Shown piece by piece: positions 10,553 through 41,076 of a stretch of DNA of 48,731 nt. The notes under the pieces were generated by a model. It ran no database searches. It was not told the DNA's origin and worked only from the letters and a program-made list of their open reading frames with translations. The DNA is taken from contig CAJYIY010000024.1 of the NCBI GenBank assembly GCA_913775305.1, forward strand, positions 1 through 48,731, written 5' to 3'. The stretch is from an uncultured Erwinia sp. Its GTDB lineage: Bacteria; Pseudomonadota; Gammaproteobacteria; Enterobacterales; Enterobacteriaceae. How positions within the stretch are numbered: the stretch's first letter is position 1; every line of letters starts with the position of its first letter. The translations under genes and the position numbers were made by a program.

Positions 10553-11620
10553 TTAAGCCTGTGGCTGAGTCACAACGTCTTTGATACCTTTAACTTCGAT
10601 TTCTACGCGACGGTCTGGCGCCAGGCAGTCGATCAGAGCCTGACGGCCTTTCACGCTGTCACAGGTGTTGCCAGTAACTGGGTTAGATTTACCCTGGCCA
10701 CGTGCAGAGATCTTGTTAGCTGGGATACCTTTAGATACCAGGTAGTCAACCACTGACTGAGCACGTTTCTCAGACAGCTTCTGGTTGTACTCTTCAGAAC
10801 CGATACGGTCGGTGAAGCCCAGAACAACAACAGAACCGTCTTTCGGATCCAGATTGCTCAGCTGGGTGTACAGCTGATCCAGAGCCTGCTGACCTTCTGG
10901 TTTCAGAGTCGCTTTGTTGAAGTTGAACAGCACGTCAGACTTCAGGGTGAAACGCTTGGTTTCAACAACTGGAGCCGGAGCTGGTGCTGGAGCTGGTGCC
11001 GGAGCAGCAACTTCCTGACCGAAACGGTAAGAAACACCCAGGCTTAACATGGAGTTATCAGGACGTGCACCAACGGTACCTGCGTCACCGATATTGTTAA
11101 CCCACTGGTAATCCAGACGAGTTGCCCAGTTTGGGGTCAGTGCGTATTCAACACCCACTGCTGCCAGTGGAGAAACGCCAGTGTCGTGATCGCTAATGCG
11201 GTTGCCGCCAACGACCTGCTGAGTGGAATCAGCGCGCCATACCATACCACCCAGACGGGTGTACAGGTCCAGGTTGTCCATGATTGGGTAGCTTAACTTA
11301 GCTGCCAGCTGAACGCCCTGTGCTTTGAAAGCGCCGTTAACCTTGTCGCCTTTGTAAGGCATACGGCCAAGCCAGTCGTAACCCAGCTCGAAACCAAGGT
11401 ATGGGTTCGCCTGATAACCAACGAATGCACCAGCACCCAGCTGATTTTCGTGAGTTGGGCCGTCGTTGTTTTGGTAACCGTTACCGTAGTAACCTTTGTC
11501 GTGGTACTGAGACCAGCCCAGTTTAGCACCGGTATACCAGGTGTCATCTTTAGGGGCGGCCTGCGCTACGGTAGCGAAGCCAGCCAGTGCCACTGCAATT
11601 GCGATAGCTGTCTTTTTCAT
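10553..11620 (-). CDS. ompA: OmpA, outer-membrane porin and peptidoglycan anchor
   Basis: 355 residues (E. coli 346). Signal peptide [21 protein letters not shown], then an eight-strand beta-barrel of about 175 residues. An Ala-Pro hinge ([13 protein letters not shown], about residue 207) leads to a C-terminal OmpA-like domain with [16 protein letters not shown], which binds diaminopimelate of peptidoglycan, and a conserved Cys pair ([18 protein letters not shown]). The few extra residues relative to E. coli are mainly in surface loop 1, a Gly/Tyr/Asn-rich stretch. The long 5' leader is probably a target of Hfq-dependent sRNA control (MicA in E. coli). Confidence 0.98.
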
Positions 11621-11780
11621 TTTTGCGCCTCGTTATCATCCAAATAGGCAATGAGCTTAAAATGAGCTCTTTGGTTAAATCCTTCGCCGGGTTGTTATGC
11701 TCGTTTGTGACTCTTCCAAAAAAGGAGGTTATTGAGCACCCTGGCGAGTTAAAGTCTACAACGTACTAGCAAACTTACAA
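11621..11780 (-). promoter_or_regulatory. ompA promoter and long 5' leader
   Basis: On the - strand TTGTAA (11775-11780) and TAGACT (11753-11758) are 16 nt apart and sit in the same context as the E. coli ompA promoter (GACTTGTAAGTTT ... GTTGTAGACTTTA). Transcription from there gives a leader of about 125 nt ending GATAACGAGGCGCAAAA before the ATG, as in E. coli, where it stabilises the mRNA and is targeted by MicA. The rest of the gap toward sulA (11781-11967) is A/T-rich, with no gene that I can support. Confidence 0.7.
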
Positions 11781-11967
11781 GTCTGATATGATGCTGGCAC
11801 ATAAAAAAATGAGGTTTTTTACATATTATTTAACATTTGGAAGGGAATTTTTAGTACAAGAAATGGTCTGAGACGCAGCTAACCTATTGTCCAGCCGCGT
11901 CATAACATTATCTGAGGCTTGAGGCGCATACCACGATAAAAAATCCTGAGAATTATCTCATTTTTAC

Positions 11968-12480
11968 TTAATGATACAAAGTAGAATGAATTTTTAGCCC
12001 GTTAAGTGGTCGTACTGGCTGAAAATTTGTCCGATCGGGACGCATAATCAGCCCCAATGCCTGACCTGAATTTGCTGCCGCCAGCAGCCGCGATCGATCG
12101 CTCTCCGATACATCCTCCTCAAACCAACCCAGCACCACACTGTAATTGCCTGTTTGCAAGGCTTTAATCATCGCTTCAACGGTAGTGATGGGGCCTGAAT
12201 GTGTCGCCTGCATGACTTTGTCCAGCGGCAACCCGGAACGCTGTAGCCAGTCGCGGCTCAGTTTTTGCTGCGGTGTGAGCCACAGCTGCCAGCGAGACTG
12301 TTTACCTAACTGCTGTAGAAGAGGAAGCAGTAAAAGCTGAGTCATGCCTGGCTGATTCTCACTGTAAATTAATTCGCTGACCAGACCAGCGGCACATGCC
12401 GAAGCAGATGTCACACGTGATGCAATGTGAAATGCACTATCGCTATTAACAGATTGAGATTTCGGGAAATAGGTACGCAT
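11968..12480 (-). CDS. sulA: SulA, SOS cell-division inhibitor
   Basis: 170 residues from the ATG at 12480 ([18 protein letters not shown]), near the E. coli length of 169. SulA binds FtsZ and blocks polymerisation after DNA damage, then is degraded by Lon. The conserved core includes [17 protein letters not shown] and [17 protein letters not shown]. The frame is open further upstream, but that extension would run through the LexA operator, so the internal ATG is chosen. A canonical LexA box lies 20 nt upstream. The sulA-ompA pairing and divergent sxy match E. coli. Confidence 0.95.
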
Positions 12481-12500
12481 GATGTCTTCGCTCGCAATGT

Positions 12501-12520
12501 CACTGTATGGATATACAGTA
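12501..12520 (-). promoter_or_regulatory. LexA (SOS) box of sulA
   Basis: On the - strand TACTGTATATCCATACAGTG keeps the CTGT-N8-ACAG core with an AT-rich middle. It lies 20-40 nt before the sulA ATG, so LexA would cover the promoter, and sulA should be strongly SOS-induced. Confidence 0.92.
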
Positions 12521-12694
12521 TATGGCTGGCGAACAAAGATCAACCTTATTTTTTTGATGATGTCTCGCAAAATCACAAGATAACTCACAGCAAGCCGATT
12601 TATTCGTTGAACCTGTAATGCGGATTGCCTATGTTTCAATGTGTTGATTTTCGGGAATTTGTGCGAATTTTCTTAAGCTGAGCAGGGAGTTGCT

Positions 12695-13303
12695 ATGAGT
12701 AGTTCAAAACAGAGAATTGAGCAGACTAAACAGCGGTTGGCGGCGTTGGGGCCGGTGGAATCGCGTACCCAGTTTGGTGGCTACAGTCTTTCAGTCGAGA
12801 AGACCGTTTTTGCAGTCGTTGCCGATGGAGAACTGTATCTGCGCGCCTGCGAACAGGCACAACCGTATATGAGTGAAAGGAAAATGCAGCCGCTCCGTCT
12901 GGTGAAACGGGGCCTGCCGGTTGCGCTCAATTATTACCGTGTCGATGGTATGCTGTGGGCCGATGCCGAACAACTGGTGGCGATTTCTTCACTGTGTCTG
13001 AATGGCGCACGACAGGAACTTCAGGAGCGACACAGAAACCGGCGCATTAAGGATCTGCCTAATATGGGGATCCGTATGGAGGCTCTGCTGCGTGAAGTGG
13101 GTATTTTGTCAATTGATATGCTGGTGCAGCAGGGAGCCAAACGCAGCTGGCTGAAGCTACGCGTTAATAATAAACACCTTGGTCTTTCGGTGCTGTTTGC
13201 TTTGCAGGGGGCGATAGTCGGCAGCCACTATCAGGCGCTGCCGACCGAAGTCAAAGAAGAACTGCGCGACTGGTTTGAGCAGAATGCGTGCTGCGATCGA
13301 TAA
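12695..13303 (+). CDS. sxy: Sxy (TfoX), competence regulator
   Basis: 202 residues (E. coli about 209). The N-terminal TfoX domain (about residues 10-95, GPVESRTQFGGYSLSVEKTVFA) is followed by a C-terminal TfoX helical domain (about 115-195, IKDLPNMGIRMEALLREVGI). With CRP it activates CRP-S promoters of DNA-uptake genes. The start ATG has an AGGGAG ribosome-binding site 6 nt upstream. It is divergent from sulA across 214 nt; in E. coli the sxy leader is long and structured, but I did not resolve a specific fold here. Confidence 0.92.
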   Translation: MSSSKQRIEQTKQRLAALGPVESRTQFGGYSLSVEKTVFAVVADGELYLRACEQAQPYMSERKMQPLRLVKRGLPVALNYYRVDGMLWADAEQLVAISSLCLNGARQELQERHRNRRIKDLPNMGIRMEALLREVGILSIDMLVQQGAKRSWLKLRVNNKHLGLSVLFALQGAIVGSHYQALPTEVKEELRDWFEQNACCDR

Positions 13304-13318
13304 GAGAGAACGGCATAC

Positions 13319-15478
13319 CTAGCTCTCCGAGCGCCGGATAATTTGCTGTTTGAGACTCGCAATTTCAGGTAGCAATGCCACCAGCAGGCCGATCTGCTGT
13401 AAAACAAGCGGTTCTTTGGTGGCATTATCCGCTTCGGTTTTCTCAATGCGCTGTGCCAGACCCATCTTCATACGCTCTGCCTTGACCTCATCCACCACAT
13501 CAACATGCAGGATATCATTGACGTAGCAGACCACATCATCCATGAGCTGTAGCAGAGTGGTGTTTTCCAGTCTCTCACGGTGCGCCCCTAACGCAGAAAT
13601 ATAGCTCAGGAACGAATGATTGAGGCAGAGTAACCTGAAAACGGCTTCGCGAAGTGCGCTGTCAGCTTTGTTTTCTACTGAAATATTCGAAACAACGGCA
13701 GCCATTTCCGCATCGCCGTTGTGCGCATCGCGGCGTGCAACACGATAATCCAGGCGATTATCCTTGCCCTGGTGATATTGCACCAGTACGGCATCAAGAT
13801 AGCGGCAGTTAGCATTCAGCGTTCGCTCTGCCACGGCCGACAGCCTGAGGAAACGCCAGTCGGGCCAGATAAAGGCCACGGCAAGCCAGGCGATAGCGCA
13901 CCCCAACAGCGTGTCAATAATGCGCGGAAGCGCGACTTCAAACCCTTCACCCAGCAGGTTAAAGCACAGCAGCACCAGCAGCGTAATAAACATGGTGGCA
14001 TGTGCATACTGGATATTACGGAAGAAGAAGAACATCACCCCGGTCACGACAATCAACATCAGCTGGCCTTCAATGGAAGGGACCAGCCAGAGGAGGGGCA
14101 GACCGAGGGCAATTCCCGTCAGCGTACCGACAATGCGTAGCGCCAGACGTCGGCGCGTTGCGCTGTAGTTAGGCTGGCAGACAAATAAACTGGTCAGAAG
14201 TATCCAGTAGCCATGCTGCAGGCCGGTGAGCTGGATAAAAGCGTAGCCGGTGCACAACAGAAGTGAGAGTCGTACCGCATGACGAAACAGCGGTGACTCA
14301 GCGCTCATGTGGCGGCTGAGGCGCAGGCGGGCATCGCTCCAGCCGGTCAACCCCTCCCGGGAAAGCGAACGATCGTGATAATAACCGCCCTCCGCCAGCG
14401 CCTGCTCTGACTCTATGGTCGCCAGCTGGGCGTCGATAGCTTTCAGATTGTTCAGCAGGAAGTGCATAGCTTTGACTTCGTGGCTGTCCGGCTGCTGCAC
14501 GGTCAGTCTCTGAAGTGCCGCATTAAGATTGGCAAACACCCGCTCAAATCGCGAATCATGCTGATAGCTTTCACGCAGTAATATGGCGCGCGAAAGCTGC
14601 CGACAGGCCAGAGCCTGTAGCGTTAATAAACGTTGAAAGCGGAAAAGAATATCACTGGCACCCCAGGCTTGGCGCAGAGCATGGTACTGCACGTGCGATG
14701 AGCTGGCGCGTTCATGAATATCCTGAGCCACAAAATAGTAATGAAGCGTACGTCTGGTTCCACGCTGGCCGCGATCGCCGCGCAGTCGTGACTGTATAGA
14801 GGCTTTTGCCTGATTCAGTAACGTCACCAGCTGGCTGTTAGCCATGGCCACATCCACCATCGCCTGCCGGTCATCGTCCTCCAGATCGGGGTCGAACAGG
14901 CTGGCTTTGGCGTCCAGGTAGTGCGCCAACTGCCCATAGCAGCGGGAAAGATTTTCCTGGAGCGGACGGATGGGAAACAGCAGGTGTCCGGAAAGTGTCA
15001 ACAGATTATACCAGATGGCACCGGTCAGCAGCAGCGCGGGCTGCAAATACCACTGAGTAAACAGCCCAATTCCCAGCATGGTATAGATGGCGATAAGCAG
15101 TGCACCAAAGGCGATAGTTGCGTAACGCGGGCCCAGTGCTCCCAGCAGAATAAAACCCCAGCTGGAAATCGCCAGCCCGATAACAAACAGCCAGGGATGC
15201 GGGAACAGCAGCTCCACCGATACGGATGCAACACAGAAACAGACCAGCGTTATCAGCAGGTTACGCAGACGACCACTCAGGCGGTCGTCAAGGTCGGTCA
15301 GCGCCGCGGCAACCACGCCCAGCGTGAGTGGTATCGTCCAGGTGATTTGATGCAGCCACCAGGGAACGGCGGTGGTCCCGGTCAGGGCCAGCGTAATGCG
15401 GATATGATACAGCCAGCTGCTGTTAAACGCATGACGCCGGAGATTATTCATCAGCGACGTTTGCATGGTGCGACTCAC
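13319..15478 (-). CDS. yccS: YccS, inner-membrane protein of the FUSC/YccS-YhfK family
   Basis: 719 residues with two sets of about five or six hydrophobic helices (roughly 25-165 and 390-525), separated by a long soluble segment and followed by a cytoplasmic C-terminal region. This is the layout of the YccS/YhfK and AaeB-like aromatic-acid exporter superfamily. Sequence and length agree with E. coli YccS (about 720). The substrate is not established. It overlaps yccF by 4 nt (ATGA), so the pair is coupled. Confidence 0.92.
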   Translation of the reverse strand: MSRTMQTSLMNNLRRHAFNSSWLYHIRITLALTGTTAVPWWLHQITWTIPLTLGVVAAALTDLDDRLSGRLRNLLITLVCFCVASVSVELLFPHPWLFVIGLAISSWGFILLGALGPRYATIAFGALLIAIYTMLGIGLFTQWYLQPALLLTGAIWYNLLTLSGHLLFPIRPLQENLSRCYGQLAHYLDAKASLFDPDLEDDDRQAMVDVAMANSQLVTLLNQAKASIQSRLRGDRGQRGTRRTLHYYFVAQDIHERASSSHVQYHALRQAWGASDILFRFQRLLTLQALACRQLSRAILLRESYQHDSRFERVFANLNAALQRLTVQQPDSHEVKAMHFLLNNLKAIDAQLATIESEQALAEGGYYHDRSLSREGLTGWSDARLRLSRHMSAESPLFRHAVRLSLLLCTGYAFIQLTGLQHGYWILLTSLFVCQPNYSATRRRLALRIVGTLTGIALGLPLLWLVPSIEGQLMLIVVTGVMFFFFRNIQYAHATMFITLLVLLCFNLLGEGFEVALPRIIDTLLGCAIAWLAVAFIWPDWRFLRLSAVAERTLNANCRYLDAVLVQYHQGKDNRLDYRVARRDAHNGDAEMAAVVSNISVENKADSALREAVFRLLCLNHSFLSYISALGAHRERLENTTLLQLMDDVVCYVNDILHVDVVDEVKAERMKMGLAQRIEKTEADNATKEPLVLQQIGLLVALLPEIASLKQQIIRRSES

Positions 15479-15921
15479 CGGAAACGACGACGCGCATTGG
15501 CTTCACGTGCTGCCCGCGCTACCTCCACGGGAACAACCCGGCGTCCTACCGGCCAGAGCGCAATAACGGCTATTTTCAGATTAGCAATGCCAACCGGAAT
15601 ACCGATGATAGTCAGGCACTGCGCAATGCCTGCGGTGATGTGCATCAGGCACAGCCACCAGCCGAAAAAGATCAGCCAAAGGATATTGAGCAGCTTACCA
15701 CCCGCGTTCAGCAGCGCATTTTTTCCATCCGGATCCAGCTCATCAACGTGTATAGCTTCATTACCAAAGGGCAGCAGCGAAAGCCTGGTAATTTCCCAGC
15801 ATGAGCGGGTCAGAGGCAGGGTAAAAACCAACACGATGCTGACCAGGGTGGCCAGCAGCCATGACAGGGTAGTCAGGAAACCACCCAGAATGAAGTTAAG
15901 AATATTAAGTACGGCACGCAT
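15475..15921 (-). CDS. yccF: YccF, DUF307 inner-membrane protein
   Basis: 148 residues from the ATG at 15921 (MRAVLNILNFILGGFLTTL), identical in length to E. coli YccF. Three or four hydrophobic helices surround the conserved LTRSCWEITRLSLLPFGNEAIH and the repeated FGWW and GIPVGIANLKIA motifs of DUF307. An open extension of 14 residues upstream has no homologous look and is not used. It is coupled to yccS by the 4-nt overlap. The function is unknown. Confidence 0.92.
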   Translation of the reverse strand: MRAVLNILNFILGGFLTTLSWLLATLVSIVLVFTLPLTRSCWEITRLSLLPFGNEAIHVDELDPDGKNALLNAGGKLLNILWLIFFGWWLCLMHITAGIAQCLTIIGIPVGIANLKIAVIALWPVGRRVVPVEVARAAREANARRRFR

Positions 15922-16056
15922 TGGTGTTATCCCCTCGGGCGTAGAGAAAAGTCTTAGTGACAATTCGTTGATTGTAACGTGTTTTAACGCTGGAGCGGTA
16001 AACTGTCGCCAGTTAAACTAAGCGCAGATGAAATTAACCGCAGCAGGGTCGCAGGA

Positions 16057-18111
16057 ATGGAACTGAAAGCAACATCGCTGGGTAAACATCTGGCACAACA
16101 TCCTTACAACCGGGTGCGGCTGTTGAATGCTGGCGTTGAGGTCAGCGGTGAAAAACATGAATATCTGATCCCCTTTAACCAGCTGTTATCCATTGCCTGC
16201 AAGCGTGGTCTGGTTTGGGGCGAGCTGGAATTTTCACTGCCTGACGATAAAGTTGTCCGCCTGCACGGTACGGAATGGAACGAAACGCAGCGCTTCTATC
16301 ACTACCTCAGCCAGGCATGGCAGAAGTGGAGCCAGCAGATGAGTGAGGTCGCTGCCGGAGTGTTAAACCAGCAGGCTGAAGCCATTCGTCTTGCGGAGCA
16401 GCAGGACCGCTGGCTGAAACGCAGCGATATCAGCAGCTGGCAGCTGGCGATCCGTAAATCCTTTGACGCCATACCGCTGCCGGTAACCCGACTTGACGAG
16501 TTTGAGTGCTGCCGCGATGCCTGGCGCTACTGTCTGCGGTGGCTGAATGACAGCGACAGCCAGCGCAGCCAGCGCAACGCGCGCTGGACGGAGCGCATGC
16601 TGGAACAGTATGCCGACTACTTTGCACAGGTAGAAAGCTCGCCGCTGAATCTTTCGCAGGCACGAGCGGTAGTCAATGGCGAAGACTCGGTACTGGTACT
16701 GGCCGGAGCGGGCAGCGGTAAAACCTCGGTGCTGGTTGCGCGTGCGGGATGGCTGGTAATGCGCAGGCAGGCAACGGCAGAGCAGGTGCTGTTACTGGCC
16801 TTTGGGCGTAAAGCGGCTGAAGAGATGAATGAGCGTCTGCGTTCTCGTCTGCACAGTGAAGATTTTTCGGCGCGCACTTTCCACTCGCTGGCGCTGTATA
16901 TCATTCGTCAGGGCAGTAATAAATCCCCCGTTATCAGTAAGCTGGAAAACGATACCCCTGCCCGTCATGATTTCCTGATTGACGTCTGGCGCCAGCAGTG
17001 CAGCGAGAAAAAAGCTTACGCTAGCGGCTGGCGTCAGTGGATCAGTGATGAGCTGGGTTGGGAACTGGAGGAGGGGCAGTTCTGGCAAAGTAACGCGCTG
17101 GCGAATCGGCTGGTGTCGCGTCTTGAACGCTGGCTGGGGTTGATGCGCATGCACGGCGGTGCACAGGCGGCGATGATTGAGAGTGCACCCGATGAAATTC
17201 GTCCTCTGTTCAGCAAACGGGTCAAGCTGATGGCCCCGCTGCTCAAAGCCTGGAAAACTGCGCTCAAGGAAGAGGGGGCCGTCGATTTTTCAGGTCTGAT
17301 CCACCAGGCGATTAATATTCTTGATAAAGGGCGTTTTATCAGCCCCTGGAAGCATATTCTGGTCGATGAGTTTCAGGATATCTCGCCGCAGCGCGCAGAA
17401 CTTCTGGCGGCATTACGCCGTCAAAATCGGCAGACTTCACTTTTCGCCGTCGGCGATGACTGGCAGGCCATCTACCGGTTCAGCGGTGCAGAGATGACCC
17501 TGACAACGGCTTTCCACCACTACTTTGGTGAGGGCGAGTGCTGCGTACTCGATACCACCTACCGTTTTAATCAGCGCATTGGGGAAGTCGCCAATACCTT
17601 TGTACAGCGTAATCCACATCAGCTGAAAAAATCGTTGAACAGTCTGACGAAAGGCACCAAAAAGTCGCTACAGCTGCTGCCGGAAGATCAGCTGGAAGCG
17701 CTGCTTAATAAAATGAGCGGTTACGTCAAGCCGCATGAACGGATTATGGTACTGGCGCGCTATCATCATTTGCGTCCTGAGGTGCTGGATAAAGCGGCAA
17801 CCCGATGGCCAACACTGAATCTGGAATTTATGACCATTCATGCCAGTAAAGGACAGCAGGCGGAATACGTCATCTTACTCGGGCTTTCTCAGGGAGATGA
17901 GGGTTTCCCTGCACCGGCCCGGGAATCGGTGATGGAGGCGGCGCTGCTGCCGAAAGTGGAGGCGTTTCCTGATGCGGAGGAACGTCGTCTGGCGTATGTT
18001 GCTATCACGCGTGCGATCCATCAGGTCTGGTTGCTTTACGACCGCGACAGACCCTCGGATTTTGTTGCCGAACTGAGCCGCCTGGACGTTCCGCAGATGC
18101 GAAAACCCTGA
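16057..18111 (+). CDS. helD: HelD, DNA helicase IV
   Basis: 684 residues, the same as E. coli HelD, a UvrD/Rep-superfamily SF1A 3'-5' helicase. An N-terminal extension (1-190) is followed by Walker A AGAGSGKT (about residue 220), DEXQ-box LVDEFQDISPQR (about 435), GDDWQAIYRFSGA (motif III region), TIHASKGQQAEYVILLG (motif V) and YVAITRA (motif VI). It takes part in recombination/repair; E. coli HelD is the UvrD-like helicase and differs from the RNA-polymerase-recycling HelD of Gram-positives. It is divergent from yccF. Confidence 0.96.
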   Translation: MELKATSLGKHLAQHPYNRVRLLNAGVEVSGEKHEYLIPFNQLLSIACKRGLVWGELEFSLPDDKVVRLHGTEWNETQRFYHYLSQAWQKWSQQMSEVAAGVLNQQAEAIRLAEQQDRWLKRSDISSWQLAIRKSFDAIPLPVTRLDEFECCRDAWRYCLRWLNDSDSQRSQRNARWTERMLEQYADYFAQVESSPLNLSQARAVVNGEDSVLVLAGAGSGKTSVLVARAGWLVMRRQATAEQVLLLAFGRKAAEEMNERLRSRLHSEDFSARTFHSLALYIIRQGSNKSPVISKLENDTPARHDFLIDVWRQQCSEKKAYASGWRQWISDELGWELEEGQFWQSNALANRLVSRLERWLGLMRMHGGAQAAMIESAPDEIRPLFSKRVKLMAPLLKAWKTALKEEGAVDFSGLIHQAINILDKGRFISPWKHILVDEFQDISPQRAELLAALRRQNRQTSLFAVGDDWQAIYRFSGAEMTLTTAFHHYFGEGECCVLDTTYRFNQRIGEVANTFVQRNPHQLKKSLNSLTKGTKKSLQLLPEDQLEALLNKMSGYVKPHERIMVLARYHHLRPEVLDKAATRWPTLNLEFMTIHASKGQQAEYVILLGLSQGDEGFPAPARESVMEAALLPKVEAFPDAEERRLAYVAITRAIHQVWLLYDRDRPSDFVAELSRLDVPQMRKP

Positions 18112-18124
18112 CGGCAGAGGAAGC

Positions 18125-18583
18125 TTACTTCAGGCGCTCCTGCAGGTAGCGCTCGTAATCCGGGATCTGGATTTCAACCTGCTCTGCAAATAACGGTGAG
18201 TGGATAATGAAGTCAGCGGTGGCGCGGTTGGTCGCCACCGGGATATTCCACACGGTAGCCAGACGCAGCAGCGCTTTAACATCCGGATCGTGCGGCACGG
18301 CATTCAGCGGATCCCAGAAGAAAATCAACAGATCAATTTTCCCTTCCGAGATTAATGCGCCTACCTGCTGATCTCCACCCATCGGGCCGCTGAGCATAGC
18401 CGTAACCGGCAGACCGGTCGCACGCTGCACCAGATTGCCGGTCGTGCCGGTGGCATAAAGCGTATGAGGCTGCAGTTTTTCTCTGTGGATATTTACCCAC
18501 TCCATCAGGGCGTTTTTACAATGGTCATGAGCGACCAGCGCAATATGTTTTTGCGGCTGAATCTTACGAGTGGTCTGGTCCAT
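18125..18583 (-). CDS. mgsA: MgsA, methylglyoxal synthase
   Basis: 152 residues, the same length as the E. coli enzyme. It converts dihydroxyacetone phosphate to methylglyoxal and phosphate, a bypass relieving sugar-phosphate stress. Catalytic residues fall at the expected places: His19 (VAHDHCK), Asp71 (GPMGGDQQ), His98 and Asp101 (AVPHDPD). It is convergent with helD with a 13-nt gap. Identity is secure. Confidence 0.97.
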
Positions 18584-18665
18584 TCAGATATCCTGGCTGT
18601 GTAGGGTAAAGGCAGAAACGTCAGTCAAACAGTAAATTGAGTGTAACGTTGCGGTGAAACGGATA

Positions 18666-19310
18666 TCAACTGGTATGTAAGGCTTTCATCAGCGTAATAA
18701 AACGCTGGCGGGTGGCCGCATCAACCTGTTGATACCAGAGATGCAGCATTCTTTCCGCTGACGAGCGGCGGTTAAGGGCAAAATCCTGCTCCTGCACGGC
18801 GTTGAAAACCGTAGGTTTACCCGGCTGTGCAAAACGCAGAACTGAGGCGTTTTCGCCGTTCAGGTTATAATGGATCATTGCCTGTTCAAAGTCGCTGTTG
18901 GGGGAGGTGACCAGAAAATCGCGCTTGCTCTCGATCTCAGCGCCATTCTCATCAATCAAAGTGAACTGCGGCTTCTTATCAAACACTCTGCCTTCGGTGA
19001 CGGAAGTCAGCGGCGGGAGATGAATTAACACCGAGCGGCCGCGGGCGGTGAAGGTAACAATCTGCGGGGAAGATACCCAGGTGACGCGATTATGGCCAGG
19101 GAGTTGAAACGATTTCTCTACGCGAAACAGCAACTGATGTTCGCCGCGATCAAGTTCTAATCCGTCGGCCCCTTTCAGCAACGAACCGGAAATCTTATGT
19201 CCGTCCAGAACCAGAAGGTCGATATCGGCAGAAAGTTTTAGCGTGGTTGCCTGCACAGCAGAGGCCAACAGCATTATGATCAACCCGGTTATGACCCTTA
19301 ACAGCTTCAT
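18666..19310 (-). CDS. yccT: YccT (CsgI), secreted DUF2057 protein linked to curli control
   Basis: 214 residues with a cleavable signal peptide, [21 protein letters not shown], so it is periplasmic. The mature part (TTLKLSADIDLLVLDGHKISGSLLKG...) is the DUF2057 family. E. coli YccT has been reported to dampen curli/CsgD output and is also called CsgI; that role is carried over by homology only. Divergent yccU starts 188 nt away, and the region between holds both promoters. Confidence 0.9.
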   Translation of the reverse strand: MKLLRVITGLIIMLLASAVQATTLKLSADIDLLVLDGHKISGSLLKGADGLELDRGEHQLLFRVEKSFQLPGHNRVTWVSSPQIVTFTARGRSVLIHLPPLTSVTEGRVFDKKPQFTLIDENGAEIESKRDFLVTSPNSDFEQAMIHYNLNGENASVLRFAQPGKPTVFNAVQEQDFALNRRSSAERMLHLWYQQVDAATRQRFITLMKALHTS

Positions 19311-19498
19311 TCATACTCCAGACCAGCAAACGGTGAGAAAACGTCGAATGTATCAAAGTCTTTCAGTATGGCACCATATTAACATTTAAACACATTTAAT
19401 CGTGCTGTTGATCGTGAATTACCGAATTGGCGACGCTGAGCGAATTGCAACCGTCATAATGATAAAATACAGGCCGTTAACCCGAACCGGAGAGCAAT

Positions 19499-19918
19499 AT
19501 GGATGACAAAAAAATTACTGAAGTGCTGACCAGTAGCAAAACCATTGCCCTGATCGGAGCGACTGACAACGCGCAGCGCCCGGCCTGTCACGTTATGAAA
19601 TATCTTCTTTCACAGGGTTATGAAGTTATACCCGTAAACCCCAAGCTCACCGGGCAGAAATTGCTGGGTCAGACGGTATATGCGCAACTGGCAGATATTC
19701 CTCAGCCTGTCGATATAGTGGATGTGTTCCGAAATGCTGAAGCAGCGTGGGGCATCGCGCAGGAAGCCATCGCCATCGGTGCCAAAACTCTCTGGCTCCA
19801 GATTGGGGTGATCAACGAACAGGCCGCCGTGCTGGCGGCGGATGCCGGGTTAACGGTAGTGATGGACCGTTGCCCGAAAATAGAAATTCCTCGCCTCGGC
19901 CTGGCAAAGAGCGCGTAG
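19499..19918 (+). CDS. yccU: YccU, CoA-binding (Rossmann-like) protein
   Basis: 139 residues (E. coli 137) of the CoA_binding family. The nucleotide/CoA loop is ALIGATDNAQRPACHVMKYL near residues 18-38, and the family motif around MDRCPKIEIPRLG is at the C terminus. The CCGGAGAGC ribosome-binding region precedes the ATG. Its physiological role is unknown. In E. coli hspQ lies between this gene and rlmI; here it does not. Confidence 0.93.
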   Translation: MDDKKITEVLTSSKTIALIGATDNAQRPACHVMKYLLSQGYEVIPVNPKLTGQKLLGQTVYAQLADIPQPVDIVDVFRNAEAAWGIAQEAIAIGAKTLWLQIGVINEQAAVLAADAGLTVVMDRCPKIEIPRLGLAKSA

Positions 19919-35892: not shown

Positions 35893-36615
35893 ATGGCTGC
35901 TGACACTTATTTCAGTTGGCGAGACGAAATGCAATGCAATTTCAGTCAGGAAACGGAGGTTGGCAGAGTGCCTCTGTTAATTGAACAGCAGGCCAAGCGT
36001 CTCGGGTTCGATTTTTATCTGCTTCTCATCAGGCATCCTGTGCCATTTACGCGGCCCAGGACCTTTTATTACTGTAATTTCCCAGAGGAATGGATAAATT
36101 TCTATTGCAGTGAAAACTCTACTTCCCTGGACCTGATACTGAAGCATTGCTACTTCCCGGGCAGCCTGCGTGTGTGGGACGATAAGTGTGCTGGTGAAGG
36201 GGAAACGGTGATGCAGACGGCACGGCAGTTTGGGGTCTTTCAGGGTATTTCAACCTCAGCGATGGCTCAGAATCGAGCGAAGGGAATATTATTATTCGCC
36301 TCCTCAGATCCGATCAATATTGTAAAATTAACCACGGAATTAGAACTTAAACTCCAGTATCTTCTGGAACTGTCTCTGACGACTCTCATTCGCCTGAATG
36401 ATATTTCCATGGTATCCGTAAAACTGGAATTAAGTGACCGGGAGCGTGAAATTCTTAAGTGGGTTGCTGAAGGGAAAACGTCAGCTGAAATATCGCTGAT
36501 ACTTTCTATTTCTCAGCACACAGTTAATTTTCATCAGAAAAAAATGCAAAAGCGCTTGAATGCACCGAATAAAACGCAAATTGCTTCCTACGCTGCCGCA
36601 ATGGGATTGATCTGA
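35893..36615 (+). CDS. sdiA: SdiA, LuxR-family AHL-responsive regulator
   Basis: 240 residues, colinear with E. coli SdiA without gaps, including FSWRDEMQ, IRHPVPFTRP and the C-terminal GKTSAEISLILSISQHTVNF helix-turn-helix. The autoinducer-binding domain is 1-165 and the DNA-binding domain 178-240. Ligand-pocket residues Trp67, Tyr71, Asp80 and Trp95 are kept; Tyr63 is Phe, Phe59 is Tyr, and the usual Pro after Asp80 is Leu. In E. coli SdiA has no partner synthase; here a LuxI homologue follows 127 nt downstream on the same strand. In E. coli SdiA influences division genes and uvrY; uvrY lies 2 kb away here too. Confidence 0.95.
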   Translation: MAADTYFSWRDEMQCNFSQETEVGRVPLLIEQQAKRLGFDFYLLLIRHPVPFTRPRTFYYCNFPEEWINFYCSENSTSLDLILKHCYFPGSLRVWDDKCAGEGETVMQTARQFGVFQGISTSAMAQNRAKGILLFASSDPINIVKLTTELELKLQYLLELSLTTLIRLNDISMVSVKLELSDREREILKWVAEGKTSAEISLILSISQHTVNFHQKKMQKRLNAPNKTQIASYAAAMGLI

Positions 36616-36625
36616 AAGGCGATGC

Positions 36626-36645
36626 AACTACTAATTTTGGTAGTT
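36626..36645 (+). promoter_or_regulatory. lux-box-like 20-bp palindrome between sdiA and the AHL synthase gene
   Basis: AACTACTAATTTTGGTAGTT has 6-bp arms AACTAC / GTAGTT in perfect inversion, and 16 of 20 positions are symmetric. It matches the CT-N12-AG core of las/rhl-type boxes. It starts 10 nt after the sdiA stop and ends 97 nt before the synthase ATG. TATTAT at 36649-36654 could be a -10, which would put the operator over the spacer/-35; the real start site is unknown. Confidence 0.7.
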
Positions 36646-36660
36646 TCGTATTATTAACGG

Positions 36661-36719
36661 GTTGTCTACCCTTCGCAGGGTAACAACCCTGCGCGACTTG
36701 CACGGGGCAGTTTTCGTGC
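36661..36719 (+). promoter_or_regulatory. Leader with mutually exclusive hairpins before the AHL synthase gene
   Basis: Hairpin A (36661-36687) pairs GTTGT(C)TACCC with GGGTAACAAC, with a bulged C and loop TTCGCA. Hairpin B (36674-36693) pairs CGCAGGGT with ACCCTGCG, with loop AACA. A and B share 36674-36687, so only one can form. A third stem, GCACG / CGTGC, spans 36700-36719. None is followed by a proper T run, so this looks more like a structured leader than a simple terminator. The role is inference. Confidence 0.5.
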
Positions 36720-36742
36720 GGGAGTGCGACGGGAATATATAA

Positions 36743-37366
36743 ATGAAAATTATCCAGACCAAACTGAAGGATATGCCTTCCTCGCTGCTGGCTGAATTGG
36801 GAAGCTACCGTTATAGTGTTTTTGCCAGAGAAGAAGGCTGGTCAATTCCATCTCGGCTCAGTACTCCTGGCCAGGAGTACGATCGTTTTGATCGTTCAGA
36901 TGTCAGCTGGCTGATTGCCTGGCATGCGCAGCACGGTATCTGTGGCTGCGCCCGCTTGATGAACTGGCAGTGTCCTGCTGATCATCCTCTTTCTGAAGAG
37001 GACTACGAAAGCTTCAACGGCGGACCGATCTGGGAGATGTCTCGATTTTCAGCTCGTCTGGAAATCGACAGTGAGCTGCCTTTAAACATTCTGTGGCATG
37101 CACTGCAACTGGCCGAACAGTCAGGAATCGGCCATTTATTCAGTGCATCAACGCCGATGCTGGAGAAAATGTTTGGTCAGTTCCAGGTCAACTATCTGCA
37201 GCTACCGCCGGGTGTGCTCCAGTCAGAAGACAATCTTTTTGCCGTTAAAATACCGGTAACGCAACCTCAGCTTACCAGCCGTTTTCATGGCTCGCGACGA
37301 TTTAAGCCTGAAGAAGTTCTGCCATCACTGGGCGTGTCAATAAGCTGGGGGATGCGAGGGCGCTAG
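36743..37366 (+). CDS. LuxI-family acyl-homoserine lactone synthase, RhlI-like
   Basis: 207 residues. Conserved catalytic residues of the family are in place: Arg23, Phe27 and Trp33 (YRYSVFAREEGW), Asp47 and Asp50 (YDRFD), Arg71 (GICGCARL), and Glu98 and Arg101 (IWEMSRFSA). The N-terminal half resembles RhlI/CepI (AELGxYRxxVF, GICGCARL) more than the EsaI/ExpI group usual in this order. The acyl-chain loop that normally reads TTxxYLL...F is replaced by WQCPADHPLSEEDYESF, and the Arg71-Glu98 distance is about 3 residues shorter than in RhlI. The product should be an N-acyl-HSL from S-adenosylmethionine and acyl-ACP, chain type unknown. The GGGA ribosome-binding site is 8 nt from the ATG. Its stop overlaps the convergent glpM-like gene by 4 nt. 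Confidence 0.88.
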   Translation: MKIIQTKLKDMPSSLLAELGSYRYSVFAREEGWSIPSRLSTPGQEYDRFDRSDVSWLIAWHAQHGICGCARLMNWQCPADHPLSEEDYESFNGGPIWEMSRFSARLEIDSELPLNILWHALQLAEQSGIGHLFSASTPMLEKMFGQFQVNYLQLPPGVLQSEDNLFAVKIPVTQPQLTSRFHGSRRFKPEEVLPSLGVSISWGMRGR

Positions 37367-37701
37367 GCGTGCCATTTCGACCAAAGCGTAATCAACAGCC
37401 AGGCCGCTACAGCCCAGCAGGCGACAGCGGCCATCAGTGCAGGCACTATCCGCATCATATTGATGAAATACCACAGCGATACCAGATAGACAAAATAAGG
37501 GATAATCGCCCACATGCCGAACAGAATGGTCGTGCGCAGCGCTTCCATTCCACGTTCACTGCCGACGATATAGTGCGCAATCAGCGCAAAGGTCGGAAAC
37601 AGTGGGATCAGCCCGGCAAGATAGTAATGACGTGTTTTTGAAAGAATTGCGATCAGGAGTACAATAACAGCGCCAAGTATCGCTTTTATCAGTAAGGCCA
37701 T
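37363..37701 (-). CDS. ydgC: GlpM/YdgC-family small inner-membrane protein
   Basis: 112 residues with four hydrophobic helices, closely like E. coli YdgC: KAILGAVIVLLIAILSK, then AGLIPLFPTFALIAHYIVGS and IIPYFVYLVSLWYF. The GlpM family is linked to alginate production in Pseudomonas, but the enterobacterial role is unknown. In E. coli ydgC is at a different locus. Here it is convergent with the AHL synthase gene with a 4-nt overlap; whether this is the only copy in the genome is not known. Confidence 0.88.
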   Translation of the reverse strand: MALLIKAILGAVIVLLIAILSKTRHYYLAGLIPLFPTFALIAHYIVGSERGMEALRTTILFGMWAIIPYFVYLVSLWYFINMMRIVPALMAAVACWAVAAWLLITLWSKWHA

Positions 37702-37845: not shown

Positions 37846-38070
37846 CTACTGACGGAAAGCCTGTTTGATTTGCTTAACGGTATTGGTGAACACTTCAGCC
37901 TGCTGTTCATCTTCTAATCCCGCAATGTAACGTTCCATATTGATGATCACTTTGCCCGCGTCGGCCTGACCAATCGATTTCAGCATCAGTGTAACCAGCG
38001 CTTTCATGCAGGTCACTTCGTTGGCTAATGCCTTAATGTCTTCACGGGTTGAAAAGTCAATCTGACTCAT
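37846..38070 (-). CDS. yecF: YecF, DUF2594 small protein
   Basis: 74 residues from [19 protein letters not shown], the same length as E. coli YecF, with [18 protein letters not shown] and the C terminus [11 protein letters not shown]. Upstream in-frame codons are open but lack homology, and GGAGAGATC precedes the chosen ATG at 38070. It sits next to uvrY, as in E. coli. It is a small helical protein of unknown function. Confidence 0.92.
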
Positions 38071-38591
38071 GATCTCTCCTGATAAATGATAAATAACATG
38101 CCTCTGAATCGCAGGACAGGGCGCGAAAGTTGTTAAAAAGCATATCACAAAACCTTTAAAAAATCAGATGCAAGCTCACTGCTCGCGCAGGGATATCGGT
38201 TAAAAAGTGATAAGTGAAATCGTAAAGCGTTCCGGTTTTATGCTGTATTTATGCTGAAAGAATTAAGCCCTGAGTTGAGCCTGGAAATCTGTGAATTTTA
38301 AAGAAGGACAACGTATACTGATGCTTTTTATGTAAGTCATTGTAAATTAAGTTTTATTTATTTTATCTGCTCATTCGTTGTAAATGAACATTACCATTAT
38401 AGTCACGATTCTCGACTTCAAGGTGCTGGTGATTTTTCTAAGCGTTGTTTTAATTTTGGATTATGATTGAGGAAATGAATGAGTTCGCTGTTGTGTTAAA
38501 TATGTTCTACCAGTCAAGAAAAAGTAGTAGAATAATGTCCCTACAATAATTGCCAATCGCCACCTGCCTCAGCCATTTAAGGGAGTTCCGT
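38071..38591. other. 520-bp A/T-rich divergent region between yecF and uvrY
   Basis: The region contains the promoters of yecF (-) and uvrY (+). It is markedly A/T-rich in the middle (38330-38480). I see no ORF with homology and no clear terminator-flanked sRNA unit. The uvrY ribosome-binding site GGGAG is at 38581-38585. Confidence 0.5.
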
Positions 38592-39248
38592 TTGATAAGC
38601 GTTTTTCTCGTTGATGACCACGAACTGGTGCGTACAGGGATCCGTCGCATACTGGAAGATATCAAAGGTATCCAGGTTGTAGGTGAAGCCAACTGTGGTG
38701 AAGATGCAGTGAAGTGGTGCCGCAGCAACCGCGTTGACGTGGTGCTGATGGATATGAATATGCCCGGTATCGGTGGTCTTGAAGCCACGCGTAAAATTGT
38801 GCGCTACACGCCGGGTGCTAAAGTGATTATGTTGACCATTCACACTGAAAGTCCACTTCCGGCAAAAGTGATGCAGGCTGGAGCTGCTGGCTATCTCAGT
38901 AAAGGTGCTGCGCCACAGGAAGTGGTCAACGCGATTCGATCGGTCAATGCCGGGCAGCGCTATATCGCTTCAGATATCGCCCAGCAGATGGCCCTGAGCC
39001 AGATTGAACCCCAGACGGAATCGCCGTTCAGCTGTTTATCCGAACGCGAGCTGCAGATCATGTTGATGATCACCAAAGGTCAGAAAGTGACTGAGATTTC
39101 CGAACAGCTGAACCTGAGCCCGAAAACGGTGAACAGCTACCGTTACCGGATGTTCAGCAAGCTTAATATCAGCGGTGATGTCGAATTAACTCACCTGGCT
39201 ATCCGTCACGGTCTGTTCAATTCGGAACCCCTAATCAGTAGTGAGTAG
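38592..39248 (+). CDS. uvrY: UvrY, response regulator partner of BarA (GacA-type)
   Basis: 218 residues, the same as E. coli UvrY. The receiver domain (1-120) has phosphoacceptor Asp54 (VLMDMNMPG), Asp8-Asp9 in LVDDHE and Lys near 104 (GYLSKGAAP). A LuxR-type helix-turn-helix follows (about 150-205, [35 protein letters not shown] in two halves). The start is TTG at 38592, 6 nt after GGGAG, which recovers the E. coli N terminus. BarA-UvrY activates the CsrB/C sRNAs and so relieves CsrA. Its 3' end overlaps uvrC by 8 nt, implying cotranscription. Confidence 0.96.
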
Positions 39249-41076
39249 TATGGTATTTGATGCCCGTGCCTTTCTGAAAACCGTGACCAGCCAGCCTGGC
39301 GTCTATCGCATGTACGATGCCAGCGAAACGGTGATTTACGTTGGTAAAGCGAAAGATCTGAAGAAGCGTCTCTCCAGCTATTTTCGTGGCAATCTGGCCA
39401 GCCGAAAAACTGAAGCGCTGGTGGCATTGATTCAGCAGATTGATGTGACCGTCACCCACACGGAAACGGAAGCCCTGCTGCTGGAGCACAACTACATTAA
39501 GCTCTATCAGCCGCGCTATAACGTTCTGCTGCGCGACGATAAATCCTATCCCTATATTTTCCTCAGTGCCGATACCCATCCGCGCCTTGCCAGCCATCGC
39601 GGGGCTAAACATGCGAAAGGGGAGTACTTTGGTCCTTTCCCGAACGGTTATGCGGTGCGGGAAACGCTGTCGCTATTGCAGAAGGTGTTTCCGGTTCGCC
39701 AGTGTGAGAACAGCGTGTATCGCAATCGCACGCGTCCCTGCCTGCAGTATCAGATTGGCCGCTGTTTGGGTCCCTGCGTTAAAGGGTTGGTGACGGAAGA
39801 AGAGTACGCTCAGCAGATAAACTATGTGCGGCTCTTCCTTTCCGGCAAAGACGATCAGGTACTGAATCAGCTGGTCAGCAGGATGGAGACAGCCGCGACG
39901 GAACTGCGTTTTGAAGAGGCCGCGCGACTGCGCGATCAAATCCAGGCCGTGCGCCGCGTAACGGAAAAACAGTTCGTATCCAACCAGGGAGACGACATTG
40001 ATGTCATCGGCGTGGCTTTCGATGGCGGTCTGGCCTGTCTGCATGTGCTTTTTATCCGTCAGGGCAAGGTGCTTGGCAGCCGCAGCTACTATCCGAAGGT
40101 GCCGACAGGAACGGACCGGGCCGAAGTGGTGCAAACCTTTGTCGGCCAGTTCTATTTACAGGGAAGCCAGGCCAGATCGCTGCCTTCTGACATTTTGCTG
40201 GATTTCACGCTGCCGGAAAAAGATCTGCTGGCCGACTCTCTGACCGGGCTCGCTGGCCGGCGGGTAACTATCCAGAGTAAGCCGCGCGGCGATCGCGCCC
40301 GTTACCTGAAGCTGGCCAGAACAAACGCTGCCACGGCGCTGGCGACCCGGCTGGCACAGCATTCCACCGTTCATCAGCGTCTGTCAGAGCTGGCGCAGGT
40401 TTTAGAACTGCCCGAAATTACCCGAATGGAGTGCTTTGACATCAGCCATACGATGGGGGAGCAGACCGTCGCTTCCTGTGTGGTATTTGATGCGAACGGA
40501 CCTGTGCGCAGTGAATACCGGCGTTATAATATCAGTGGGATTACGCCGGGGGACGACTACGCGGCGATGAATCAGGTGCTGCGCCGGCGTTATGGTAAAG
40601 AGCTGGAAGAGAGTAAAATTCCGGATGTCATTCTTATCGACGGCGGTAAGGGACAGCTGGCGCAGGCTAAAAGCGTTTTTGCTGAACTGGACGTCACCTG
40701 GGATAAACATCATCCTTTACTGTTAGGCATTGCGAAAGGCACCGATCGTAAGGCAGGGCTGGAAACGCTGTTTTTCGAACCGGAGGGGGAGGGATTTTCT
40801 CTGCCACCGGATTCTGCTGCACTTCATGTGTTGCAACATATTCGTGATGACTCTCACAATCATGCAATTACGGGACATCGCAATAAACGGGCGAAAGTGA
40901 AAAATACCAGCGCGCTGGAAACGATAGAAGGCATAGGCCCAAAACGTCGACAGATGCTGCTGAAGTACATGGGAGGCCTGCAACCACTGATCAATGCCTC
41001 AGTGGAAGAGATTGCCAGAGTACCGGGAATTTCGCATGCACTGGCCGAAAAAATCTTCTATGCGCTGAAACACTAA
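39241..41076 (+). CDS. uvrC: UvrC, excinuclease ABC subunit C
   Basis: 611 residues (E. coli 610). The GIY-YIG nuclease domain (1-100, PGVYRMYDA ... [10 protein letters not shown]) makes the 3' incision. A Cys-rich part ([13 protein letters not shown]) and UVR motif ([14 protein letters not shown]) follow. The RNase H-like domain (about 380-540, [12 protein letters not shown] and LIDGGKGQ) makes the 5' incision. Tandem helix-hairpin-helix motifs close the protein ([25 protein letters not shown]). The start is GTG inside uvrY. Confidence 0.97.

Follow-up and report, generated by a model that had tools for sequence, protein, structure and literature searches.

In E. coli and Salmonella, SdiA is the textbook eavesdropper, and the enzyme that may once have been its partner has been described in Erwinia and Pantoea. 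In these genera Sabag-Daigle and Ahmer (2012) identified a LuxI gene adjoining sdiA near sirA/uvrY, named its product ExpI/PhzI, judged it closest to RhlI and proposed that it was lost in E. coli and its relatives (PMC3474713), an account that is repeated in a 2025 review (PMC12086679). The 2010 genome paper on E. pyrifoliae likewise describes in EPYR_02385/EPYR_02386 an SdiA homologue (45%) and next to it a LuxI-like gene whose identity is very low, its protein having 22% identity to P. chlororaphis PhzI and 17% to P. atrosepticum ExpI (PMC2827408). The pairing of SdiA with a synthase is therefore already known. The text of the 2012 paper contains no promoter element, no lineages without SdiA and no residue analysis; we add here a conserved box that is absent where SdiA is absent, a loop shared with RhlI, a genus-wide census, losses in the reverse direction and a correction concerning the product. 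We read the locus, with a probability of roughly 0.7, as an ancestral SdiA quorum-sensing module of the Erwiniaceae that is homologous to rhlR-rhlI and in which autoinduction would be mediated by the box.

The window, which is the whole stretch of 48,731 nucleotides from an uncultured Erwinia sp. that was analysed, carries a pair that fits the 2012 definition of ExpI/PhzI, namely a LuxI gene beside sdiA near sirA/uvrY. The gene order is sdiA - synthase - glpM(-) - yecF(-) - uvrY - uvrC, with 127 bp separating sdiA from the synthase gene on the same strand:

35893-36615, + strand: sdiA, LuxR-type receptor with autoinducer-binding domain and GerE helix-turn-helix (ORF list, domain matches, receptor tree)
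36626-36645, no strand assigned: lux/rhl-type box AACTACTAATTTTGGTAGTT, predicted SdiA binding site (dyad and conservation; 10 bp past the sdiA stop)
36662-36671, + strand: conserved TTGTCTACCC block, candidate -10 region (conservation among loci; 16 bp past the box)
36743-37366, + strand: SdiA-linked LuxI-family synthase, RhlI-type (ORF list, PF00765, structure matches, tree)
37363-37701, - strand: glpM, convergent, with a 4-bp overlap with the synthase end (PF06942, 170.7 bits)
37846-38073, - strand: yecF (DUF2594), locus marker (PF10769 and NF007904)
38592-39248, + strand: uvrY (UvrY/SirA/GacA response regulator), locus marker (orthologues adjoining the synthase; name from the annotated E. 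coli locus)
39241-41076, + strand: uvrC, locus marker (ORF list; neighbours in the named loci)

In the ORF list of the window both sdiA (240 aa) and the synthase gene (207 aa) begin with ATG and are uninterrupted. The preliminary description, which had reported an SdiA homologue without gaps and, downstream in the same orientation, an entire LuxI-family synthase, is borne out by this list and by alignment to the E. coli SdiA structure 4y13. Its assignment of the yecF-uvrY-uvrC setting to the true sdiA locus also holds, with glpM to be added to the genes that it named.

The best PDB match of the window SdiA is E. coli SdiA itself (4y13, E=5.5e-66, residues 5-240, no gaps), and PF03472 and PF00196 place an autoinducer-binding and a GerE domain across its full length. 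On the NCBIfam SdiA model it scores 260.2 bits across residues 1-240, below the curated cut-off of 350, probably because that model is drawn from the closer enteric SdiA proteins. In the window sdiA lies upstream of uvrY/uvrC, a position that was compared with the loci of E. coli, Klebsiella and Salmonella. The AHL-receptor residues D80 and W95 are present in 62 of 62 SdiA sequences and W67 in 61 of 62. The window SdiA is alone among the 62 in having Leu where E. coli has P81 and again where it has S134, the other 61 having Pro and Ser, respectively; this may reflect an altered ligand pocket or relaxed selection in this strain. Separately, a Salmonella plasmid carries an sdiA gene (L123, 2477-3199), accompanied by tcyN, DUF2594 (yecF), uvrY and uvrC, that is labelled a predicted efflux-pump resistance gene in PLSDB.

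Synthase matches at E<=0.001 were found in 24 of 246 genomes of the family, 14 of them (the window's included) with a full-length orthologue of at least 58% identity. In the short stretches retrieved around these 14 genes, yecF and uvrY are both visible in thirteen and yecF only in one (L016); SdiA lies within 1.5 kb in 11. Within the genus of the window the synthase is present in 36 of 37 genomes. A further set of 66 named synthase loci, mostly from Erwinia, Pantoea, Mixta, Winslowiella and Izhakiella with two titled Enterobacter, provides the synteny survey of the sdiA-yecF interval that the preliminary description had suggested: when SdiA and UvrY matches below 60 bits are dropped, yecF is downstream of the synthase in all 66, uvrY in 65 (L062 ends first) and SdiA is upstream in 62. 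SdiA is 240 aa long in 56 of the 66, with the start chosen by script; it is broken or shortened in L044, L080 and L087, has an ambiguous start in L065 and differs by one residue in L086 and L088. The synthase is matched by 23 plasmid records and 3 phage records, none of them at 60% identity or more. One relative that keeps the SdiA-linked synthase also contains a second, canonical LuxI homologue that is apparently a pseudogene, its matched frame being interrupted by three stops (L153, G636:C2:4395225-4395710).

Four of the 66 named loci have no SdiA (L052, E. endophytica; L053, E. psidii; L089; L090), and together with L006 these retain the synthase where sdiA has been lost. The best SdiA-like match in the genomes G622, G630, G064, G031 and G086 has only 25-30% identity, the first two of these being equated by eye with L052 and L053. 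The receptor-synthase pair has been broken in both directions: E. coli kept SdiA and other lineages kept the synthase.

Between the two genes, ten bases past the sdiA stop, lies the 20-bp palindrome AACTACTAATTTTGGTAGTT. The rhlR-rhlI interval of P. aeruginosa carries CCCTACCAGATCTGGCAGGT, an element known as the rhl box, and the E. typographi counterpart of the palindrome is AACTACCAGATCTGGTAGTT; identity to the pre-rhlI element is 16 of 20 bases in E. typographi and 12 of 20 in the window. When the window is counted together with the 62 named loci that bear SdiA, 62 of these 63 have a dyad with 7/10 or more paired positions at this place and 52 have one with 8/10 or more, compared with 13.6% and 2.1% of random stretches from the same loci (13,226 draws), and as the SdiA-bearing loci are related these counts are not independent events. 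A 7/10 dyad is by itself weak evidence. Position six of the arm is C/G in 62 of 63 loci, and at position five a paired change from A-T to G-C has occurred on both arms in six. The one named locus that has SdiA and in which the box was not found is that of Pantoea sp. 1.19 (L088). After sdiA in E. coli, Klebsiella and Salmonella there is no comparable dyad (best 6/10). Nor is the box recognisable intact in the four SdiA-less loci, where the dyad scores are 6, 5, 5 and 7, the 7 (L090) arising from unrelated sequence. Judged by eye, E. psidii and E. endophytica retain a remnant of the sdiA end and E. psidii also has one arm of the box; loss of the box may date from the adjoining sdiA deletion instead of from later decay.

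Across the genus the box is found at no more than one mismatch in 34 of 37 genomes, each time beside the synthase gene and 94-102 bp before its start codon, distances that were compared by eye in a count in which SdiA presence was not scored genome by genome. Two of the remaining three carry the synthase and yielded no SdiA orthologue; in the third neither gene was found. Twenty-six of the 34 have a single site and eight have one or two extra. A search with the box for a wider SdiA regulon gave one site in the window genome at up to one mismatch, against 16 for a reversed control pattern, and the idea of such a regulon was set aside. The close relatives G621, G637 and G641 have in common another dyad that resembles the box at one mismatch and that is absent from the window genome at that threshold. 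In two of these three relatives (L162, 2086-2103; L163, 1945-1962) it lies between what, from sequence, look like a GlrR/QseF-like regulator gene and a glnB-like gene.

We considered whether the dyad between sdiA and the synthase gene is a terminator and rejected this, as it is AT-rich and by eye lacks a T-run downstream. The conserved TTGTCTACCC block may be the -10 region of the synthase promoter: where a box replaces the -35 element, the spacing between box and -10 seen here is the usual one for a LuxR-type promoter. In the portion of the published work that was searched we found no report of a box between sdiA and the synthase gene.

A synthase tree was built from 20 of the 66 named loci and the window, with RhlI, TofI, CepI, LasI and EsaI as anchors, and a receptor tree from 15 of the 62 SdiA-bearing loci and the window. 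No named RhlI was found by searches among genomes of the class. The RhlI anchor was taken from OQ572407.1 (L120), host DNA within a phage record, and its identity follows from the RhlR on the same record, which is 100% identical to the PDB chain. This record, "Pseudomonas phage Y5", is marked UNVERIFIED and carries the rhlR-rhlI region of P. aeruginosa with its neighbours at 10975-19535 (L120, 1-8561).

The 21 SdiA-linked synthases form a single clade (100/100) that is sister to P. aeruginosa RhlI (97/91), and both are nested in a group with CepI/TofI and SmaI-like enzymes (99/97). In the receptor tree the SdiA proteins of Erwinia and of the enteric bacteria E. coli, Salmonella and Klebsiella form one clade (99/96) with RhlR as its sister (100/100). 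The EsaI of the PDB clusters apart from the SdiA-linked synthases, with L150 and with another LuxI of the window genome, L002. The stems are long, 2.18 changes per column for the SdiA-linked clade and 2.6 for the EsaI clade, and a joint clade of the two is not rejected by the AU test (p=0.184). CepI/TofI as the closest relative is rejected (AU p=0.0165), as is an EsaI-like synthase, in that case by the tree and by the presence of a true EsaI relative elsewhere in the genome, with the AU value of 0.184 for the joint clade to be kept in mind. The preliminary description had called the synthase RhlI/CepI-like; its likeness to RhlI is borne out, within a group that also takes in CepI/TofI, and the clustering within the EsaI clade that it had named as evidence to the contrary is not seen on the tree. 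It was mistaken in supposing that the published proposal makes ExpI/PhzI EsaI-like, because PMC3474713 calls them RhlI-related, so that the contrast drawn between an EsaI-like and an RhlI-like partner is a confusion of names.

On PF00765 the window synthase scores 23.5 bits, just below the cut-off of 24, with several orthologues slightly above it; its PDB match is TofI (chain 3p2f, E=5e-15). The AlphaFold model (mean pLDDT 79.5) has TofI as its first Foldseek match, with BjaI, MesI, LasI, RpaI and EsaI also among the top matches, at TM-scores of only about 0.5-0.6, and on the evidence of this model the protein is predicted to have the LuxI/GNAT fold. Residues were compared, in EsaI numbering, at the 15 positions that at least 85% of a set of 32 further LuxI proteins have in common. 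Ten of these (R23, F27, W33, E45, D47, D50, R71, E98, S100 and R101) are each retained in 66-67 of 67 SdiA-linked synthases, and five are altered, L32 being replaced by E and Y54 by W, with F82, P92 and G154 not kept. In the LuxI family such residues serve the SAM site and catalysis or the acyl side. A character independent of the tree is in accord with it: the interval between R101 and W118 is 16 residues in all 67 SdiA-linked enzymes and in RhlI, and 21-27 residues in the rest of the LuxI set apart from one of its 32 members, L160, which lies on a long branch and has 15. The segment from L72 to W97 is both shortened and variable, with 16-28 residues (21 in 43/67) against 26-29 in RhlI and other LuxI proteins. 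The column of EsaI T140, examined for its bearing on 3-oxo versus unsubstituted signals, is S in 64 of 67.

Several published statements bear on the signal that such an enzyme might make. The 2012 claim of an oxoC6 product rests on references 23 and 24 of that paper, which concern E. amylovora cultures and P. ananatis (PMC3474713). The P. ananatis signal, C6-HSL, is assigned to EanI in a further study (PMC6749038), and in P. ananatis LMG 2665 the gene of EsaI type, 92% identical to EsaI, is at a locus separate from the SdiA-linked pair. Attribution of oxoC6 to the SdiA-linked synthase thus draws on other genes or on whole cells. Pantoea sp. 1.19 is reported to produce C6 and 3-oxo-C6 AHL, its AHL genes being named yspI/yspR (PMC5532839).

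It is possible, if doubtful, that the enzyme, though descended from LuxI, has given up the synthesis of an ordinary AHL and makes a different signal that Erwiniaceae SdiA detects. The 2.18 changes per column accumulated since the split from RhlI, the shortened and variable L72-W97 segment and the departures at F82, P92 and G154 are what one might expect of such an enzyme; the LuxI positions of the N-terminal half together with E98, S100 and R101 are nonetheless retained, and D80, W95 and W67, typical of AHL receptors, are preserved in SdiA. E. pyrifoliae, which has such a pair, was negative in the CV026 and A. tumefaciens AHL biosensors, and its genome authors proposed an unknown signal (PMC2827408). 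A pagI mutant of P. agglomerans 9Rz4 is described as AHL-defective (PMC10364316), though the SdiA-linked synthase is present in both P. agglomerans genomes searched, 9Rz4 not being one of them. Against this, a review attributes OHHL and HHL to Italian E. amylovora isolates and names LuxRI homologues EamRI, which may or may not be the SdiA-linked pair, and records that another group detected no AHL (PMC7912708). Many AHLs moreover escape biosensor panels, and expression in the test media may matter. As a tentative suggestion of our own, an undescribed signal of the HSL type might be made by means of a remodelled RhlI in almost all Erwinia and in many members of Pantoea and Mixta; this signal, and not oxoC6-HSL, could be the ancestral ligand of SdiA, and the SdiA-less lineages could still be broadcasting it. 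If so, the standard view of what SdiA evolved to hear has been built on signals that other synthases make.

The choice that the preliminary description left between an ancestral partner of RhlI type and a foreign synthase falls to the former. Displacement of the first partner of SdiA by a foreign synthase of RhlI/CepI-like type would accommodate the much greater divergence of the synthase from RhlI than of SdiA from RhlR (stems of 2.18 and 0.37), and is nevertheless very improbable, since the rhl pair is sister to receptor and synthase alike, the tandem order and the rhl-type box are conserved, the 21 synthases on the tree form a single clade and all 66 from named loci occupy this place in the genome. 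Both trees, the order of the two genes, the short loop held in common with RhlI and the conservation of the box together argue that the whole rhlR-box-rhlI module was inherited.

The synthase is under purifying selection and more strongly constrained than SdiA: dN/dS is 0.02-0.06 in 16 of 18 pairs that have SdiA (the remaining two lack a usable dS), whereas for SdiA it is 0.05-0.20 (18 pairs). When the synthases of E. endophytica and E. psidii, both without SdiA, are compared with each other, the value is about 0.12-0.15, so that constraint there is weaker, yet present. A dead relic retained by chance, to which the sub-threshold PF00765 score and the want of SdiA beside the synthase in several lineages might point, is hardly credible given these ratios and the presence of the synthase in 36 of 37 genomes of the genus.

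The inherited, autoinducing SdiA module that we prefer would operate as follows. The synthase would convert S-adenosylmethionine and an acyl donor into a homoserine-lactone signal, SdiA would bind this signal and occupy the box at 36626-36645, and from there it would activate, rather than repress, the synthase promoter. In E. coli and its relatives the box and the synthase would have been lost and the receptor kept; in some Erwiniaceae the receptor would have been lost, the box would have decayed and the synthase would have been kept. What can be observed directly, in homology, in synteny, in selection and in a box that is conserved beside SdiA and missing from loci that lack it, is in keeping with this course of events. 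As the locus preserves the partner enzyme of SdiA and a proposed DNA switch, the original SdiA signal is directly testable.

Several described systems are close to the pair. EPYR_02385/EPYR_02386 of E. pyrifoliae resembles it and, judging by the published description, is probably its counterpart. The EsaI/EsaR type, which includes EanI and two more canonical LuxI genes of the window genome with LuxR neighbours (L001 and L002, on contigs C64 and C6 of G000), shares the LuxI family and coexists with the pair in the same genomes; it differs in forming a separate long-branch clade with a receptor of another clade, and in L001 and L002 receptor and synthase are convergent. L002, 74% identical to the EsaI of the PDB, is the real EsaI relative of the window genome. 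P. ananatis LMG 2665T is said, in the title of Sibanda 2016, to have an rhlI/rhlR pair. This is probably the SdiA-linked pair, since PF00765 finds only two LuxI proteins there, one of EsaI type and one SdiA-linked. Both quorum-sensing pairs of P. ananatis, rhlI/rhlR included, are needed for biofilm according to the same paper that describes Pantoea sp. 1.19 (PMC5532839). From the rhlR-rhlI system of P. aeruginosa the pair differs in a synthase identity of about 28% and in the remodelled acyl-side region of the SdiA-linked enzymes, whose product is not known to be C4-HSL. The two systems share the tandem order of receptor and then synthase, the intervening box, the sister position in both trees and the shortened R101-W118 loop.
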